64,000 nucleotides of DNA from Pseudomonas sp. R5-89-07 (GTDB taxonomy: Bacteria; Pseudomonadota; Gammaproteobacteria; Pseudomonadales; Pseudomonadaceae): positions 4,340,001 through 4,404,000 of the forward strand of contig NZ_CP027727.1 of assembly GCF_003851685.1 (NCBI RefSeq), read 5' to 3'. Under the pieces are notes generated by a model. It saw nothing but the letters and a program-made list of their open reading frames with translations. It was not told the origin of the DNA and searched no databases. Each line of letters opens with the position of its first letter. Positions within the stretch are counted from its first letter, which is position 1. A program made the position numbers and the translations under genes. Shown here piece by piece: positions 45,831 through 50,924 of the stretch.

Positions 45831-46046
45831 ATGAGAAGACTTAAGCGTGATCCGTTGGAAAGAGCATTTTTACGCGGATATCAATATGGCGTTCATGGAA
45901 AATCCCGTGAGCTTTGCCCATTTACTCTACCGTCGGTACGCCAAGCCTGGATCAATGGCTGGCGAGAAGGACGCGGCGACAACTGGGACGGTATGACTGG
46001 CACTGCGGGTATCCACAGACTCAACGAACTTCACGCCGTCGGCTAA
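45831..46046 (+). CDS. rmf: Ribosome modulation factor
   Basis: Small basic protein of 71 residues that binds 70S ribosomes in stationary phase and drives dimerisation into inactive 100S particles. The sequence MRRLKRDPLERAFLRGYQYG and the segment SRELCPFTLPSVRQAWINGW are diagnostic. GAGGG precedes the ATG. It has a long structured leader and its own terminator, so it is monocistronic and probably growth-phase controlled. Confidence 0.97.
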   Translation: MRRLKRDPLERAFLRGYQYGVHGKSRELCPFTLPSVRQAWINGWREGRGDNWDGMTGTAGIHRLNELHAVG

Positions 46047-46187: not shown

Positions 46188-47207
46188 TCAGCGCAGGGCG
46201 GCGATTGCGTCCACCGATTCGCGAATGAGCGCGGGGCCTTTGTAGATGAAGCCGGAATACACCTGCACCAGGCTTGCGCCCGCCGCGATCTTTTCAGCCG
46301 CATGCTTGCCTTCGGTGATGCCACCTACGGCGATGATCGGCAGGCGCCCCGCCAGTTCGGCCGCGAGCACCTTGATGATATGGGTGCTTTTGTCCCGAAC
46401 CGGCGCGCCGGACAGACCGCCGGCCTCGTCACCGTGAGCCAGGCCTTCGACGCCTACGCGGCTGAGGGTGGTGTTGGTCGCGATCACCGCATCCATGCCC
46501 GAATCCACAAGGGCCTGGGCCACCAGCACGGTTTCTTCATCGCTCATATCAGGCGCGATCTTGATCGCCAACGGCACCCGCTTGCCGTGGCGCACCGCCA
46601 GGTCTTCCTGGCGCTGGCGCAACGCTTCGAGCAATTGCTTGAGGGAGTCACCGAACTGCAGGCTGCGCAGGCCCGGGGTGTTGGGCGAGCTGACGTTGAC
46701 GGTGACGTAGCTGGCGTGGGCGTAGACCTTATCCAGGCAGATCAGGTAATCGTCCACCGCACGCTCCACCGGCGTGTCGAAATTCTTGCCGATGTTGATA
46801 CCGAGGATGCCCTTGTATTTCGCCGCCTGCACCCGCGTGAGCAAATGATCCACGCCCAGGTTGTTGAAGCCCATGCGGTTGATGATCGCCTCGGCTTCCG
46901 GCAGGCGGAAGATCCGGGGCTTGGGGTTGCCCGGTTGCGGTCGGGGGGTGACAGTGCCGATCTCGACGAAACCGAAACCCAATTGTGCAAACCCGTCGAT
47001 GGCCGCACCGTTCTTGTCCAGGCCGGCAGCCAGCCCGACCGGGTTGGGGAATTGGAGCCCCATCACCGACACCGGCATTTTTGCCGGAGCCTTGCATACC
47101 AGGCCATTGAGCCCCAGGCGGCCACCGGCGCCGATCAGGTCCAGGGACAGATCGTGGGAGGTTTCCGGGGAGAGTTTGAACAACAGCTGGCGGGCCAGGG
47201 TATACAT
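46188..47207 (-). CDS. pyrD: Dihydroorotate dehydrogenase (quinone), class 2
   Basis: Membrane-associated FMN enzyme of pyrimidine synthesis oxidising dihydroorotate to orotate with quinone. The 339-residue protein has the class 2 N-terminal membrane helix pair ([20 protein letters not shown]), the FMN-binding [20 protein letters not shown], the catalytic serine region [17 protein letters not shown], and the C-terminal [19 protein letters not shown]. Length and motifs are normal. It converges on rmf. Confidence 0.97.
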
Positions 47208-47292: not shown

Positions 47293-47754
47293 TCAATTAC
47301 GATGAGCCATCAAGGCCTCGTAGCGTACCCAGACTTTTTCGGCGTAGCGCATGCGCAATGCGTCGCGCTGCGGCCCGGCGCCCGGCCCCACATTGTAGGA
47401 ACCCACCGCCGTCCAGTTATAGCCGAAACGCTGAACGAGCCCGGCAAGAATCGAGGCGCCGACTTCCACCGACAAGCACGGCTCGTTCAACAGCCGTTCT
47501 TCGGTAATGCCCAGCTTGAGCAAGCGAGGCAAGTGACTGCTGTTGATTTGCATCAAACCGATATCATGCGTGTCGTTCCCGTTGGCATAGTTGATCGCTT
47601 GCGCACGATACCCCGACTCTACCGCCGCGATGGCCTGCAACAACTCCGGCTCGAAGTCATAGCGACGCGCCACTTCATCCCAACAGTAGGCGAGGGCCTG
47701 GTTGCTATTAATCAGCGCGCTCAGTATCAGGGCCTTGCCCCATCCCTTAGACAC
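47293..47754 (-). CDS. Type III secretion-type lytic transglycosylase (IagB/IpgF-like)
   Basis: Exported goose-type lysozyme-like enzyme of about 153 residues that would open peptidoglycan for an injectisome. It has a signal peptide (KALILSALINSNQALA), the catalytic Glu in LLQAIAAVESGYRAQAI, and the family signatures DIGLMQINSSHLPRL and WTAVGSYNVGPG. I take the GTG at 47754 as start: it overlaps the stop of the upstream regulator gene, and the longer open frame upstream is that gene's antisense-phase reading. Small soluble transglycosylases of this shape belong to T3SS or conjugation clusters; in Salmonella iagB directly follows hilA, the same order as here. Confidence 0.8.
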   Translation of the reverse strand: MSKGWGKALILSALINSNQALAYCWDEVARRYDFEPELLQAIAAVESGYRAQAINYANGNDTHDIGLMQINSSHLPRLLKLGITEERLLNEPCLSVEVGASILAGLVQRFGYNWTAVGSYNVGPGAGPQRDALRMRYAEKVWVRYEALMAHRN

Positions 47755-48133
47755 TGCTGACCTGCCCACACGCCGAACACAGGTGCATGACTTGCTTTGG
47801 CTCAGGGTCTTCAACCTGCACGGGGCAGGTAAATCGATAGCCCTTGCCATATACGGTCTTGATAAAGCCTTTGTCGGCTCCCAAGTGTTTGCGCAACGCG
47901 TAAATGCAACGCGTCAATGACTCATCAGCCACCTCGCCCCTGGGCCAAGCGAGCGCCAACAGCCGGTCCTTGGTCATCAACGAACCGCCGGAAGCCAGCA
48001 ACAGCCGAAGCACGCGACCCTCTTTTGGTGGCAGTTGAATATCGACTTCCCTGTTTGTCAGCCGACCATCGCCCTGCAAGGTCCAGTGAGCGAAAACGAG
48101 GGGCTTTGGCGACTCTTCAATCCCTACGGCCAT
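47747..48133 (-). CDS. HilA-like winged-helix transcriptional regulator, short form
   Basis: The 128-residue product is an OmpR/ToxR-type winged-helix DNA-binding domain without receiver or membrane segment: VDIQLPPKEGRVLRLLLASG, LMTKDRLLALAWPRGEVADE, LTRCIYALRKHLGADKGF and IKTVYGKGYRFTCPV cover the whole fold. HilA of Salmonella has the same N-terminal domain but a long TPR part that is absent here; the tail is only about 25 residues with CSAC. The ATG at 48133 has AGGTG six bases upstream. Its stop overlaps the start of the IagB-like gene, so both are made together. Its targets are probably the local T3SS remnant genes, but that is inference. Confidence 0.75.
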   Translation of the reverse strand: MAVGIEESPKPLVFAHWTLQGDGRLTNREVDIQLPPKEGRVLRLLLASGGSLMTKDRLLALAWPRGEVADESLTRCIYALRKHLGADKGFIKTVYGKGYRFTCPVQVEDPEPKQVMHLCSACGQVSSV

Positions 48134-48294
48134 GGAGCACCTGTACATTCGACTGCTGACATTCAAATCCCTTTTACCCGTGACGGCGCACTCGCCCGAT
48201 GCTGTGACTATAAAAACCTGTCTCGCCCATCACGCTAGGAAAAGCCCTATTCAGTCAGCGCTTTTCAGCTTTTTGTTGTAAGACAATTCGAGGC

Positions 48295-48516
48295 TTAGCC
48301 CGAATGAGGCATCCAATCCTGATACACCTCATGCAGTTCAACCCCTAGCCGGTCCTCCAACTGCACCAACTCGCCCAGCGCCATCAGTTGCCCGTTGACC
48401 CGTACTTCCACGCAATGGATGACCTCAGGCGCCAAAGGCAACACCTTCCCCGGCGCAAACGCAGCCAGACGCTTGCGGCTGATCAATTGCTCCTGCAGCA
48501 GTATTTCCAGGTACAT
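48295..48516 (-). CDS. Stand-alone SPOA domain, remnant of T3SS C-ring protein SctQ
   Basis: Product of 73 residues equal to the C-terminal SPOA domain of SctQ/SpaO/FliN proteins: LEILLQEQLISRKRLAAFAP, GKVLPL, then VEVRVNGQLMALGELVQLED and RLGVELHEVY. AAGGCG stands nine bases before the ATG at 48516; an in-frame stop lies just upstream, so there is no N-terminal part in frame. Injectisomes also make a short SctQ-C by internal initiation, and hrcQb genes of plant pathogens encode a similar piece, so the fragment may fold by itself. It begins 17 bases after the stop of the truncated secretin gene. Confidence 0.75.
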   Translation of the reverse strand: MYLEILLQEQLISRKRLAAFAPGKVLPLAPEVIHCVEVRVNGQLMALGELVQLEDRLGVELHEVYQDWMPHSG

Positions 48517-48532
48517 AGGCAAACGCCTTTAT

Positions 48533-49528
48533 TCAGGGGGAACGCTCGCGGCCCAGTCTTACGAACGCACGTTGCACGCGTTCATATTGCGCAGCCGTCA
48601 ACAGCGGCGGCCCGGCCGGGGGCTTCGATTCGTCACGGCTCACTTCCGCCCGCCATGACGAGATTTCATTCAGTTGCTTGGGCACATCCAATTCCTCTAC
48701 CAGTTTTTCGATCAGGCTGACCTGAGCAGGCTTGCCTTTGATCAGGAGGCTGTTGGTATCCGGATAAGCGATCAACGTGAGGTTCTTGTCCGCCAGCGGG
48801 CCCTTTTGTTCACTGGCCAGCAGGCCTCGGATGATGGATGCGATTCCCGGCACGCTGACCTTGTTTGCACCGGTCCCATACTGCCGATCCTCGACGCTTG
48901 TGTTGAACACCTGCACCACGCCAAAGGCATGCGCCCCCACACGCAACTCACTGCGTTGCCGATCGGTCAATTGCGCCAGCCGCAGCACCTGGTTGACATA
49001 GCTGGGCGGCCCGGACACGTAGAACGTGCGCACCCCGCTGTCGCGCAGCGGATAGCGTGACTCATCCAGCCCCGTGCGGCGCATGATGCCGCGCAGCCGA
49101 TTGACCGAAATGTATCGCAGCGCCACGGCAGAGGTTCTCGCTTCGGCCGCGTCGTAGAGGTGCACTGCCTGCCCGTCGCTGTGCCAGATCAGGCCTTCCT
49201 GCCGGGCCAGCGCTTCGAGCACCTGTTGCGGCGCCTCGAAATCGAATGTTCCGCTGACACGCTTGTGCGCTGCTTCCCGGCTGACCACCACAGGCATTCC
49301 CAAAGGCACCGCCAGCGCAGTGAAAAAACTGTCCAGGCTTTCGTCCCTGGCCTCATACGGCTCGCCCCACGCGACACAGCTGACCAGCAACAGCGCGCCC
49401 CAAAGCAGCGTGCTACCGAGCCAGTAGTGGTTCGTCGTATTGGCGGAATCAGCAGGCACCTTGGATTTTCCTGGGGCGGTAGAACGCAAAAGAGCGGCCA
49501 TACTGAAAGGCGGGCGAACTTCAATCAT
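48533..49528 (-). pseudogene. T3SS secretin SctC (InvG-like) lacking the outer-membrane pore domain
   Basis: About 331 residues that align by eye to InvG of the SPI-1 system: signal/anchor region WLGSTLLWGALLLVSCVAWG, N0 domain (ESLDSFFTALAVPLGMPVVV, EGLIWHSDGQAVHLYDAAEA), N1 domain (RTFYVSGPPSYVNQVLRLAQ) and N3 domain (SVPGIASIIRGLL, LIAYPDTNSLLIKGKPAQV). It then ends about 45 residues after LVEELDVPK, where the roughly 230-residue secretin barrel should begin. The tail YERVQRAFVRLGRERSP resembles the extreme C-terminus of InvG, suggesting an in-frame internal deletion. The frame has no stops. The start is uncertain (49528 or 49501). As a secretin it cannot form a pore. Confidence 0.75.
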
Positions 49529-49552
49529 GATGGAAAGCTGACGGCGTCCCCG

Positions 49553-49568
49553 TGGCATGTGCCTTGCT
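49553..49568 (+). promoter_or_regulatory. Sigma-54 promoter of nasS
   Basis: TGGCATGTGCCTTGCT fits the -24/-12 consensus TGGCACG-N4-TTGCW with GG and GC separated by exactly ten bases. It predicts a start near 49579 and nitrogen (NtrC) control. Confidence 0.75.
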
Positions 49569-49677: not shown

Positions 49678-49697
49678 CAGAGAATAGGTAGGTATTG

Positions 49698-50924
49698 ATG
49701 AACGATTCGGTCGGCAACAGCCCGGTGAGCCCTGCGCTGGCCTGGGTGAACGGCAGTGACGCCCCGGAAAAAAGCAGCCTGGATCTGGGGTTCATGGCCT
49801 TGACCGATTGCGCCTCGGTGGTGGTCGCAGCCACCCAGGGGTTTGCACAACCCTACGGACTTACGCTGAACCTCAAGCGTCAGTCGTCATGGGCCAACTT
49901 GCGCGACAAACTGGTCAGCGGCGAGCTGGACGCCGCCCATAGCCTCTACGGGCTGATCTACGCCGTGCACCTGGGCATCGGCGGCGTTGCTCCGAGCCCG
50001 ATGGCGGTGCTGATGGGGCTGAACCAGAATGGGCAGAGCATCAACCTTTCCCGTGGGCTGCAACAGCAAGGCGTGACCACTCCTGAGGCATTGGACCGTC
50101 ACGTGCACCAAAGCCGCACAAAACTCACCTTCGCCCAGACGTTTCCGACAGGCACCCACGCCATGTGGCTGTATTACTGGCTGGCGAGCCAGGGCATCCA
50201 TCCGCTGCAGGACGTGGACAGCGTGGTGGTCCCTCCGCCGCAAATGGTTGCGCACCTGCAAGCGGGCCGTATCGATGGCCTGTGTGTCGGTGAACCCTGG
50301 TGCGCCAGCGCAGTGAAGCAGAACCAGGGGTTCACCCTGGCGACCAGCCAGTCGATCTGGCCGAATCATCCGGAAAAAGTCCTGGGCTGCACCCAGGCCT
50401 TCGTCGACCAATACCCCAATACGGCCCGTGTATTGGTGATGGCCATTCTCGAGGCCAGTCGTTTTATCGAGGCGAGCATACAAAACCGTCGCTCCACCGC
50501 CCAACTGCTCAGCGCCCGTGAATATCTCGATGCACCGCTGGACTGCATCGAACCACGCCTGCTGGGCAACTACGACGATGGCCTGGGCAACCAGTGGCAA
50601 GACCCGCACGCGCTGCGTTTTTTCGCCGATGGTGCGGTCAACCTGCCCTACCTCTGCGACGGCATGTGGTTCATGACCCAATTTCGCCGCTGGGGCCTGC
50701 TGCGCGAAGACCCGGACTACCTTGCCGTCGCGCGCCAGGTGCAACAACTGGACTTATATCGTCAAGCCGCCAGTGCCGTGGGCGTGGCAACCAGTGCCCA
50801 GGACATGCGCAGCAGCCAGTTGATCGACGGCAAGGTCTGGGACGGCTCCGACCCCGCCGGCTATGCCCGCAGCTTCCGCCTGCACGCCATGGCGGACAAC
50901 ACTACACGCCAAGCGCTGCGCTGA
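49698..50924 (+). CDS. nasS: NasS, nitrate/nitrite-sensing protein
   Basis: Cytoplasmic relative of the NrtA/CmpA binding proteins that binds nitrate or nitrite and sequesters the antiterminator NasT when they are absent. The 408-residue protein has no signal peptide and shows the family segments DLGFMALTDCASVVVAATQG, HAMWLYYWLASQGIHP, DGLCVGEPWCASAVKQNQG, and WQDPHALRFFADGAVNLPYL. TAGGT precedes the ATG at 49698. nasT follows after 13 bases. Its leader carries an attenuator of its own. Confidence 0.95.
   Translation: MNDSVGNSPVSPALAWVNGSDAPEKSSLDLGFMALTDCASVVVAATQGFAQPYGLTLNLKRQSSWANLRDKLVSGELDAAHSLYGLIYAVHLGIGGVAPSPMAVLMGLNQNGQSINLSRGLQQQGVTTPEALDRHVHQSRTKLTFAQTFPTGTHAMWLYYWLASQGIHPLQDVDSVVVPPPQMVAHLQAGRIDGLCVGEPWCASAVKQNQGFTLATSQSIWPNHPEKVLGCTQAFVDQYPNTARVLVMAILEASRFIEASIQNRRSTAQLLSAREYLDAPLDCIEPRLLGNYDDGLGNQWQDPHALRFFADGAVNLPYLCDGMWFMTQFRRWGLLREDPDYLAVARQVQQLDLYRQAASAVGVATSAQDMRSSQLIDGKVWDGSDPAGYARSFRLHAMADNTTRQALR

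Follow-up and report, generated by a model that had tools for sequence, protein, structure and literature searches.

What an SPI-1 (Inv/Mxi/Spa) type III secretion system (T3SS) has left between pyrD and nasS in Pseudomonas is a remnant that is not decaying, and all four of its open frames are under purifying selection. The existence of the remnant is already known: in the P. fluorescens group, SPI-1 clusters are reported to sit in the nasT-pyrD interval, where 12 subgroup V strains (SBW25, A506, SS101 and others) retain invG, iagB and a "pseudogene related to hilA", a residue that was read as loss of the cluster before the split of the sub-clade (PMC3570484). That residue, which shares with ours its position and its invG, iagB and partial hilA, looks from its description like the same thing; the passage devoted to it in that report treats hilA as a pseudogene and mentions no SPOA piece, selection, CxxCG tail or removal of the pore (PMC3570484). 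Among open-licence papers we found nothing on selection acting on the remnant. If true, our results correct the published reading of hilA at this site as a pseudogene, and they mean that decay is not the only outcome when a secretion system is lost: individual components may be retained and remodelled for a different use.

The window that we analyzed is a 64-kb stretch, positions 4340001-4404000 of a single 5,997,145-base contig, and the four minus-strand frames lie in its 2.5-kb interval between pyrD and nasS (Table 1). The original prediction had named them as T3SS frames that were all open, and each is present and scores above the curated Pfam cut-off of its family. Alignment with relatives places their likely starts later than those of the longest frames, and with the starts so corrected the beginning of iagB overlaps the stop of hilA by 8 bp, in line with the overlap predicted for the last two frames. 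The prediction had also reported export apparatus, ATPase, needle and effector genes as missing; we saw no further T3SS gene at the nasS-pyrD locus besides the four frames, and the genome carries a second T3SS elsewhere, its two FHIPEP matches (827 kb and 4188 kb) both lying outside the interval. A tRNA scan of the 64-kb window found none. Between nasS and SctC, a sigma-54-like site (TGGCATGTGCCTTGCT, window 49552-49567, plus strand) points in the direction of nasS and is conserved in the remnant alignment, which suggests a nasS promoter at this position. At the other end, a 71-aa frame after pyrD (window 45831-46046), which we read as rmf, shows 100% identity in the large majority of the related loci compared.

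Table 1. Features of the nasS-pyrD interval and its flanks, in window coordinates.
Feature	Position	Strand	Remarks
InvG/SctC remnant	48533..49459	(-)	308 aa from likely start GTG 49459; longest frame to ATG 49558
Lone SPOA (C-terminal SctQ/SpaO piece)	48295..48516	(-)	73 aa from likely start ATG 48516; TTG at 48522
HilA mini-regulator	47747..48133	(-)	128 aa from likely start ATG 48133; TTG at 48166
IagB lytic transglycosylase	47293..47754	(-)	153 aa from likely start GTG 47754
Conserved non-coding block upstream of hilA	48206..48292	(-)	TATAGT at 48207-48212; putative promoter
Promoter-like pair TTGAAG-16 bp-TATGGC upstream of SctC	49497..49524	(-)	putative; read by eye from the alignment
Flank pyrD	46188..47207	(-)	name read from sequence
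Flank nasS	49695..50924	(+)	name read from sequence

Profile searches bore out the family assigned to each frame, and three NCBIfam models matched with scores short of the cut-offs set for whole proteins, which is what fragments should give. SctC is the InvG-like secretin without its barrel that had been predicted: the N0 domain (PF21304, 81.9 bits, cut-off 27) and Secretin_N (69.1 bits, cut-off 28.2) match, Pfam's Secretin (PF00263) has no match in the window SctC, and the protein aligns to TIGR02516 only at profile positions 4-248 of 463. Its layout is a signal peptide, N0, N1, N3, a short linker and a C-terminal helix, and the secretin pore is absent. The AlphaFold2 model (mean pLDDT 77.3) begins with a helical stretch at the N-terminus and continues with three small alpha/beta domains; residues 262-284, in place of the pore, form a linker of low confidence, and residues 289-299 a helix. 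Salmonella InvG is both the best solved-structure sequence match of the protein and the top Foldseek match of its model (E 2.9e-25).

The lone SPOA domain (PF01052, 41.2 bits, cut-off 23.8) covers positions 248-299 of the 300 in TIGR02551, the C-terminal SPOA only, and its best solved-structure sequence match is SpaO. This is the solitary SctQ piece of the prediction and not a full C-ring protein, which has both SPOA domains and an N-terminal part; SctQ frames run to 297-331 residues in seven intact clusters, against 73 here.

IagB matches SLT at 83.4 bits (cut-off 21.3) and the NCBIfam IagB model with an E of 1.8e-47 (160.8 against a cut-off of 208), consistent with the lytic transglycosylase first proposed. 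Its best solved-structure sequence match is EtgA (E 3.7e-24), which was solved fused to the EscI inner rod; unlike EtgA and IagB elsewhere, the window IagB is not accompanied by genes for an inner rod or needle. Its sequence has the SLT fold and catalytic Glu of IagB and EtgA: the VES and DIGLMQIN motifs occur in 55/55 copies, all with the catalytic-type Glu of VES, and the N-terminus reads as hydrophobic. Two other genomes, G101 and G171, encode a second, short IagB-like enzyme (L144:6674-7075 and L145:6039-6446; ~51% identity with the window IagB), which adjoins GspG/GspF-like genes and a secreted chitin-binding-looking protein (names read from sequence).

The HilA frame is recognizable as such by its winged helix, as predicted. 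Trans_reg_C (PF00486) scores 55.8 bits (cut-off 26.2), and the NCBIfam HilA/EilA model matches with an E of 7.9e-30 at 103.7 bits against a cut-off of 589, that is, over the N-terminal winged helix without the C-terminal TPR half or the full-length score. The window frame ends after the winged helix, which is 51-57% identical to that of HilA in seven joined intact clusters, and the TPR part of the intact protein is gone: 128 aa stand against frames of 415-561 residues in the intact copies. Where intact HilA has its TPR part, the window protein carries a short tail with CxxCG that directly follows the DNA-binding domain. A short HilA ending in this tail is found in 56/56 of the remnant intervals that we compared, and CxxCG is present in 119/120 of the matches listed (of 240 HilA homologues) in a search that took candidates of similar length only, with TPR-length copies outside its scope. 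The tail is disordered or not confidently folded in the predicted HilA model, and it may be derived from the old HilA protein, given that CxxC-like stretches occur further along in 2 of 3 aligned intact HilAs. Upstream of hilA, TATAGT is conserved in 56/56 intervals, and the same CTATAGTC element was read in 7/7 intact clusters. A promoter-pattern search of the window's own genome gave no match and missed the window's own copy as well.

The remnant's origin by deletion from a larger SPI-1 cluster at the nasS-pyrD site is supported by comparison with relatives. We searched 298 same-genus genomes with the window SctC; 79 matched, and by score and length these split into 47 remnant-type, 24 full SPI-1-type (one of which, G232, is cut by a contig end) and 8 weak-only matches. 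Both nasS and pyrD stand beside the module in 46/47 remnants, and the remaining one, G206, stops at a contig end after nasS. Ten of the 24 full-length SPI-1-type matches were taken with a wide stretch: nasS lies beside the secretin in eight and, within the stretch, not in L071 and L079. Seven of these eight loci were joined from adjacent stretches, and another 13 stretches, without flanks, were examined for their gene order. All seven joined loci read nasS, SctC, SPOA, HilA, pyrD; nasS and pyrD stand 22.9-28.7 kb apart, and IagB was found in five of the seven. In the cluster of G156, the one of them that was scanned, Pfam recognizes SctV, the ATPase, SctR, SctS, SctT, a SipB-like translocator, PrgH, an SctJ-type ring protein and an AraC-type regulator, and one small frame has no family match. 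The intact clusters sought in relatives at the pyrD-nasS interval are thus there.

The families, gene order (invG, spaO, hilA, iagB) and chromosomal site of the window are those of the Pseudomonas SPI-1 T3SS (F113, 2P24), which makes the four genes an SPI-1 set by descent. Compared with that system, the window is ~20-26 kb shorter (an interval of 2.5 against 22.9-28.7 kb) and lacks the export apparatus, ATPase, needle, translocon and inner rings; its HilA is cut to the DNA-binding part and its InvG has no pore. We also looked at the site in 20 of the 219 genomes without an SctC match. nasS and pyrD are adjacent, 146-295 bp apart, in 11 of them; among the other nine, one has no nasS match and eight have no pyrD in the short stretch. 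The same junction is therefore known empty, with the full cluster and with the remnant, and it is this combination that argues for deletion. Because the kept genes are scattered over the full cluster, several deletions would have been needed. The prediction had allowed that the deletion might be recent; we reject this, since a remnant type found in 47/298 same-genus genomes is old. It is common enough, and some of its proteins are named SctC in database sources, that a count of gene names could mistake remnants for working T3SSs.

The evidence for selection comes from 56 distinct intervals, several of which may be of one species (left out were L001, the same stretch as L025; L005; L034, with no pyrD; and L054 and L059, identical to L010 and L012). 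The cores of SctC and HilA are open in 56/56 intervals and that of IagB in 55/56. By the Nei-Gojobori counting method, applied to pairs with a flank dS below 0.45 that share branches and are not independent, median dN/dS is 0.143 for SctC (64 pairs), 0.052 for SPOA (26), 0.178 for HilA (64) and 0.085 for IagB (59), beside 0.071 for nasS and 0.023 for pyrD (64 pairs each). The largest single values are 0.288 (SctC), 0.160 (SPOA), 0.382 (HilA) and 0.167 (IagB). When we simulated 0.36 substitutions per site without constraint, the frames still open out of 4000 each numbered 5 for SctC, 190 for HilA, 93 for IagB and 662 for SPOA. The stops and frameshifts and the dN/dS near 1 of pseudogenes were not found, the exceptions being L064, where a stop precedes the SctC tail (in frame in 55/56), and L060, where IagB is absent. 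That selection has kept these frames open in genomes across the P. fluorescens group indicates that the remnant likely still has a job, and the medians of 0.05-0.18, far below 1, fit the earlier proposal that the set is kept for other work; that a larger T3SS would be lacking at this site in relatives and dN/dS would approach 1 is the reverse of what we observed. The four frames are not an equally kept set: SctC and HilA persist in 56/56 intervals and IagB in 55/56, and SPOA is present in 26/56 and gone in 30/56, with 8-9 changes on the trees.

SctC itself has been reshaped. The barrel is missing in 17/56 intervals, and a shortened barrel is kept in the other 39/56, which makes barrel loss a later step than formation of the remnant. 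In barrel-bearing remnants, PF00263 matches over the first 120-131 of its 169 positions and the last 38-49 are missing (four scanned); 12-17 residues around the secretin signature are missing as well (four measured). N0, N1, N3, the tail and the shortened barrel have dN/dS of 0.10-0.24 in both classes, with N1 at 0.109-0.127 and the tail at 0.096-0.159, and the few barrel-zone codons that remain in barrel-less copies stand at 0.487. In L069 and L070, N0 has been lost too. Barrel loss takes two changes on the module tree and four on the flank tree. A single origin of all 17 barrel-less copies is rejected (p 0.0008 and 3e-12), and the 12 copies outside L064-L068 group as a single clade on the module tree (support 99) that the flank tree does not reject (p 0.375), so that two is the safe count, with the pore deleted in frame on at least two occasions. 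Four independent losses were considered and rejected, since those 12 copies are one module-tree clade and 10 of them share nearly the same breakpoint (L009 differs by some residues).

A candidate for the work that the remnant does is offered by the second T3SS of the same genome, at ~826-842 kb, which has SctV, an ATPase, SctR, SctC, an SctJ-type protein and an ECF-type sigma factor and which, by gene order and gene names, we take to be Rsp/Hrp1-like. Beside it lies a 1449-codon frame (G000:C1:820560-824909) that may be a secreted substrate. The genome encodes five SLT proteins, none within 800 kb of the second T3SS, and the window IagB is the only small one. A second FHIPEP match is present in 46/47 remnant genomes; an HrcV-like protein of 61-68% identity is present in 10 of the 80 no-match genomes searched (of 219), with weaker ones only in four more, a comparison of raw counts that ignores kinship and in which the HrcV query differs from that of the FHIPEP search in remnant genomes. 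Among the matches listed (~61 bits up) and by eye, an SLT gene lies within 25 kb of the HrcV-like gene in 5/10 no-remnant genomes and within 25 kb of the HrcV-like gene or second SctV in 1/22 remnant genomes (G197, contig 2, an extra SctV). In the Rsp cluster of P. fluorescens 2P24, hrpH is reported to be lacking (PMC4700148).

We tentatively propose, as a possibility still short of an even chance, that these selected SPI-1 leftovers act jointly as a wall-opening module that aids the other injectisome. IagB would be exported and cut peptidoglycan, and the N0-N1-N3 domains of InvG, with the conserved C-terminal helix, would hold it in a periplasmic ring or scaffold for which the pore would be unneeded; the partnership of SctC and IagB is one that we infer. 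The 128-aa HilA would drive the hilA-iagB unit from its own conserved promoter, its CxxCG tail perhaps serving as a metal or thiol switch. SPOA would be an optional partner of a cytoplasmic ring; the second T3SS has an SPOA of its own at 833 kb, and we considered the window domain as its putative partner. The module's client would be the Rsp/Hrp1-like T3SS, near which no transglycosylase is encoded. A shared IagB that serves the second injectisome fits the 46/47 co-occurrence and the rarity of linked SLT genes in remnant genomes. If true, this would be a rare sharing of parts between two injectisomes of the same cell, and nature would have supplied a test of which secretin parts still count once the pore is gone. 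More doubtful, and rather unlikely as a whole, is the fullest form of the proposal: that a dismantled injectisome became a stand-alone periplasmic wall-opening device, made of a secretin ring that lost its pore two or more times, a transglycosylase dedicated to the task and a very small HilA whose new tail senses metal or thiols, and that the P. fluorescens group has kept this device to aid, as a shared helper, the assembly of a second and unrelated injectisome.

Several genomes speak against the second T3SS as client. G234 has a single FHIPEP match, and no further T3SS-type secretin of it scores above the cut-off; all four of its frames are nevertheless kept, at low dN/dS (SctC 0.14-0.27, HilA 0.10-0.22, IagB 0.09-0.13); a recent loss of its second T3SS could explain this. 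G101 has no IagB and still has a second SctV, and G018 and G083, which have no remnant, have an HrcV-like gene with no linked SLT among the matches listed. A scan of the 56 intervals for HrpL boxes found none under a strict pattern and one under a loose pattern, the positive control (the window genome's own second T3SS) also giving none under the strict one, so that the scan speaks neither for nor against, and a scan for InvF sites gave no lead.

These exceptions lead us to regard as equally probable an envelope role unrelated to injectisomes, in which IagB and the N-domains of InvG would remodel peptidoglycan elsewhere with the mini-HilA as a switch. G234, which manages without a second SctV or another T3SS-type secretin, is readily accommodated in this way, as is a pore that has proved dispensable in 17 intervals, and the short enzymes of G101 and G171 beside type II secretion-like genes indicate that IagB-like transglycosylases are not tied to injectisomes. 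Against it stands the second SctV of 46/47 remnant genomes. That the mini-HilA instead controls genes elsewhere, with SctC and IagB following as its targets or by linkage, is distinctly unlikely. Full-length HilA does activate invG and other apparatus genes in P. fluorescens 2P24 (PMC8490769), and the DNA-binding domain, promoter and CxxCG tail of the short form are kept in every interval, but SctC and IagB have a coding constraint of their own (0.143 and 0.085) that linkage would not lead one to expect. Slow decay of frames that chance has so far left open and that will disappear, for which one might cite the 30 losses of SPOA, the stop in L064, the missing IagB of L060, the missing N0 of L069 and L070 and the published pseudogene reading of hilA (PMC3570484), is very improbable against cores open in 55 or all of 56 intervals, dN/dS far below 1 in every gene and the outcome of the neutral simulation.

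The length of the nasS-pyrD interval itself varies among the remnants, being larger in L046 (G171), at 4.26 kb, and in L045 (G176), at 3.20 kb; the extra DNA of L046 lies between IagB and pyrD.
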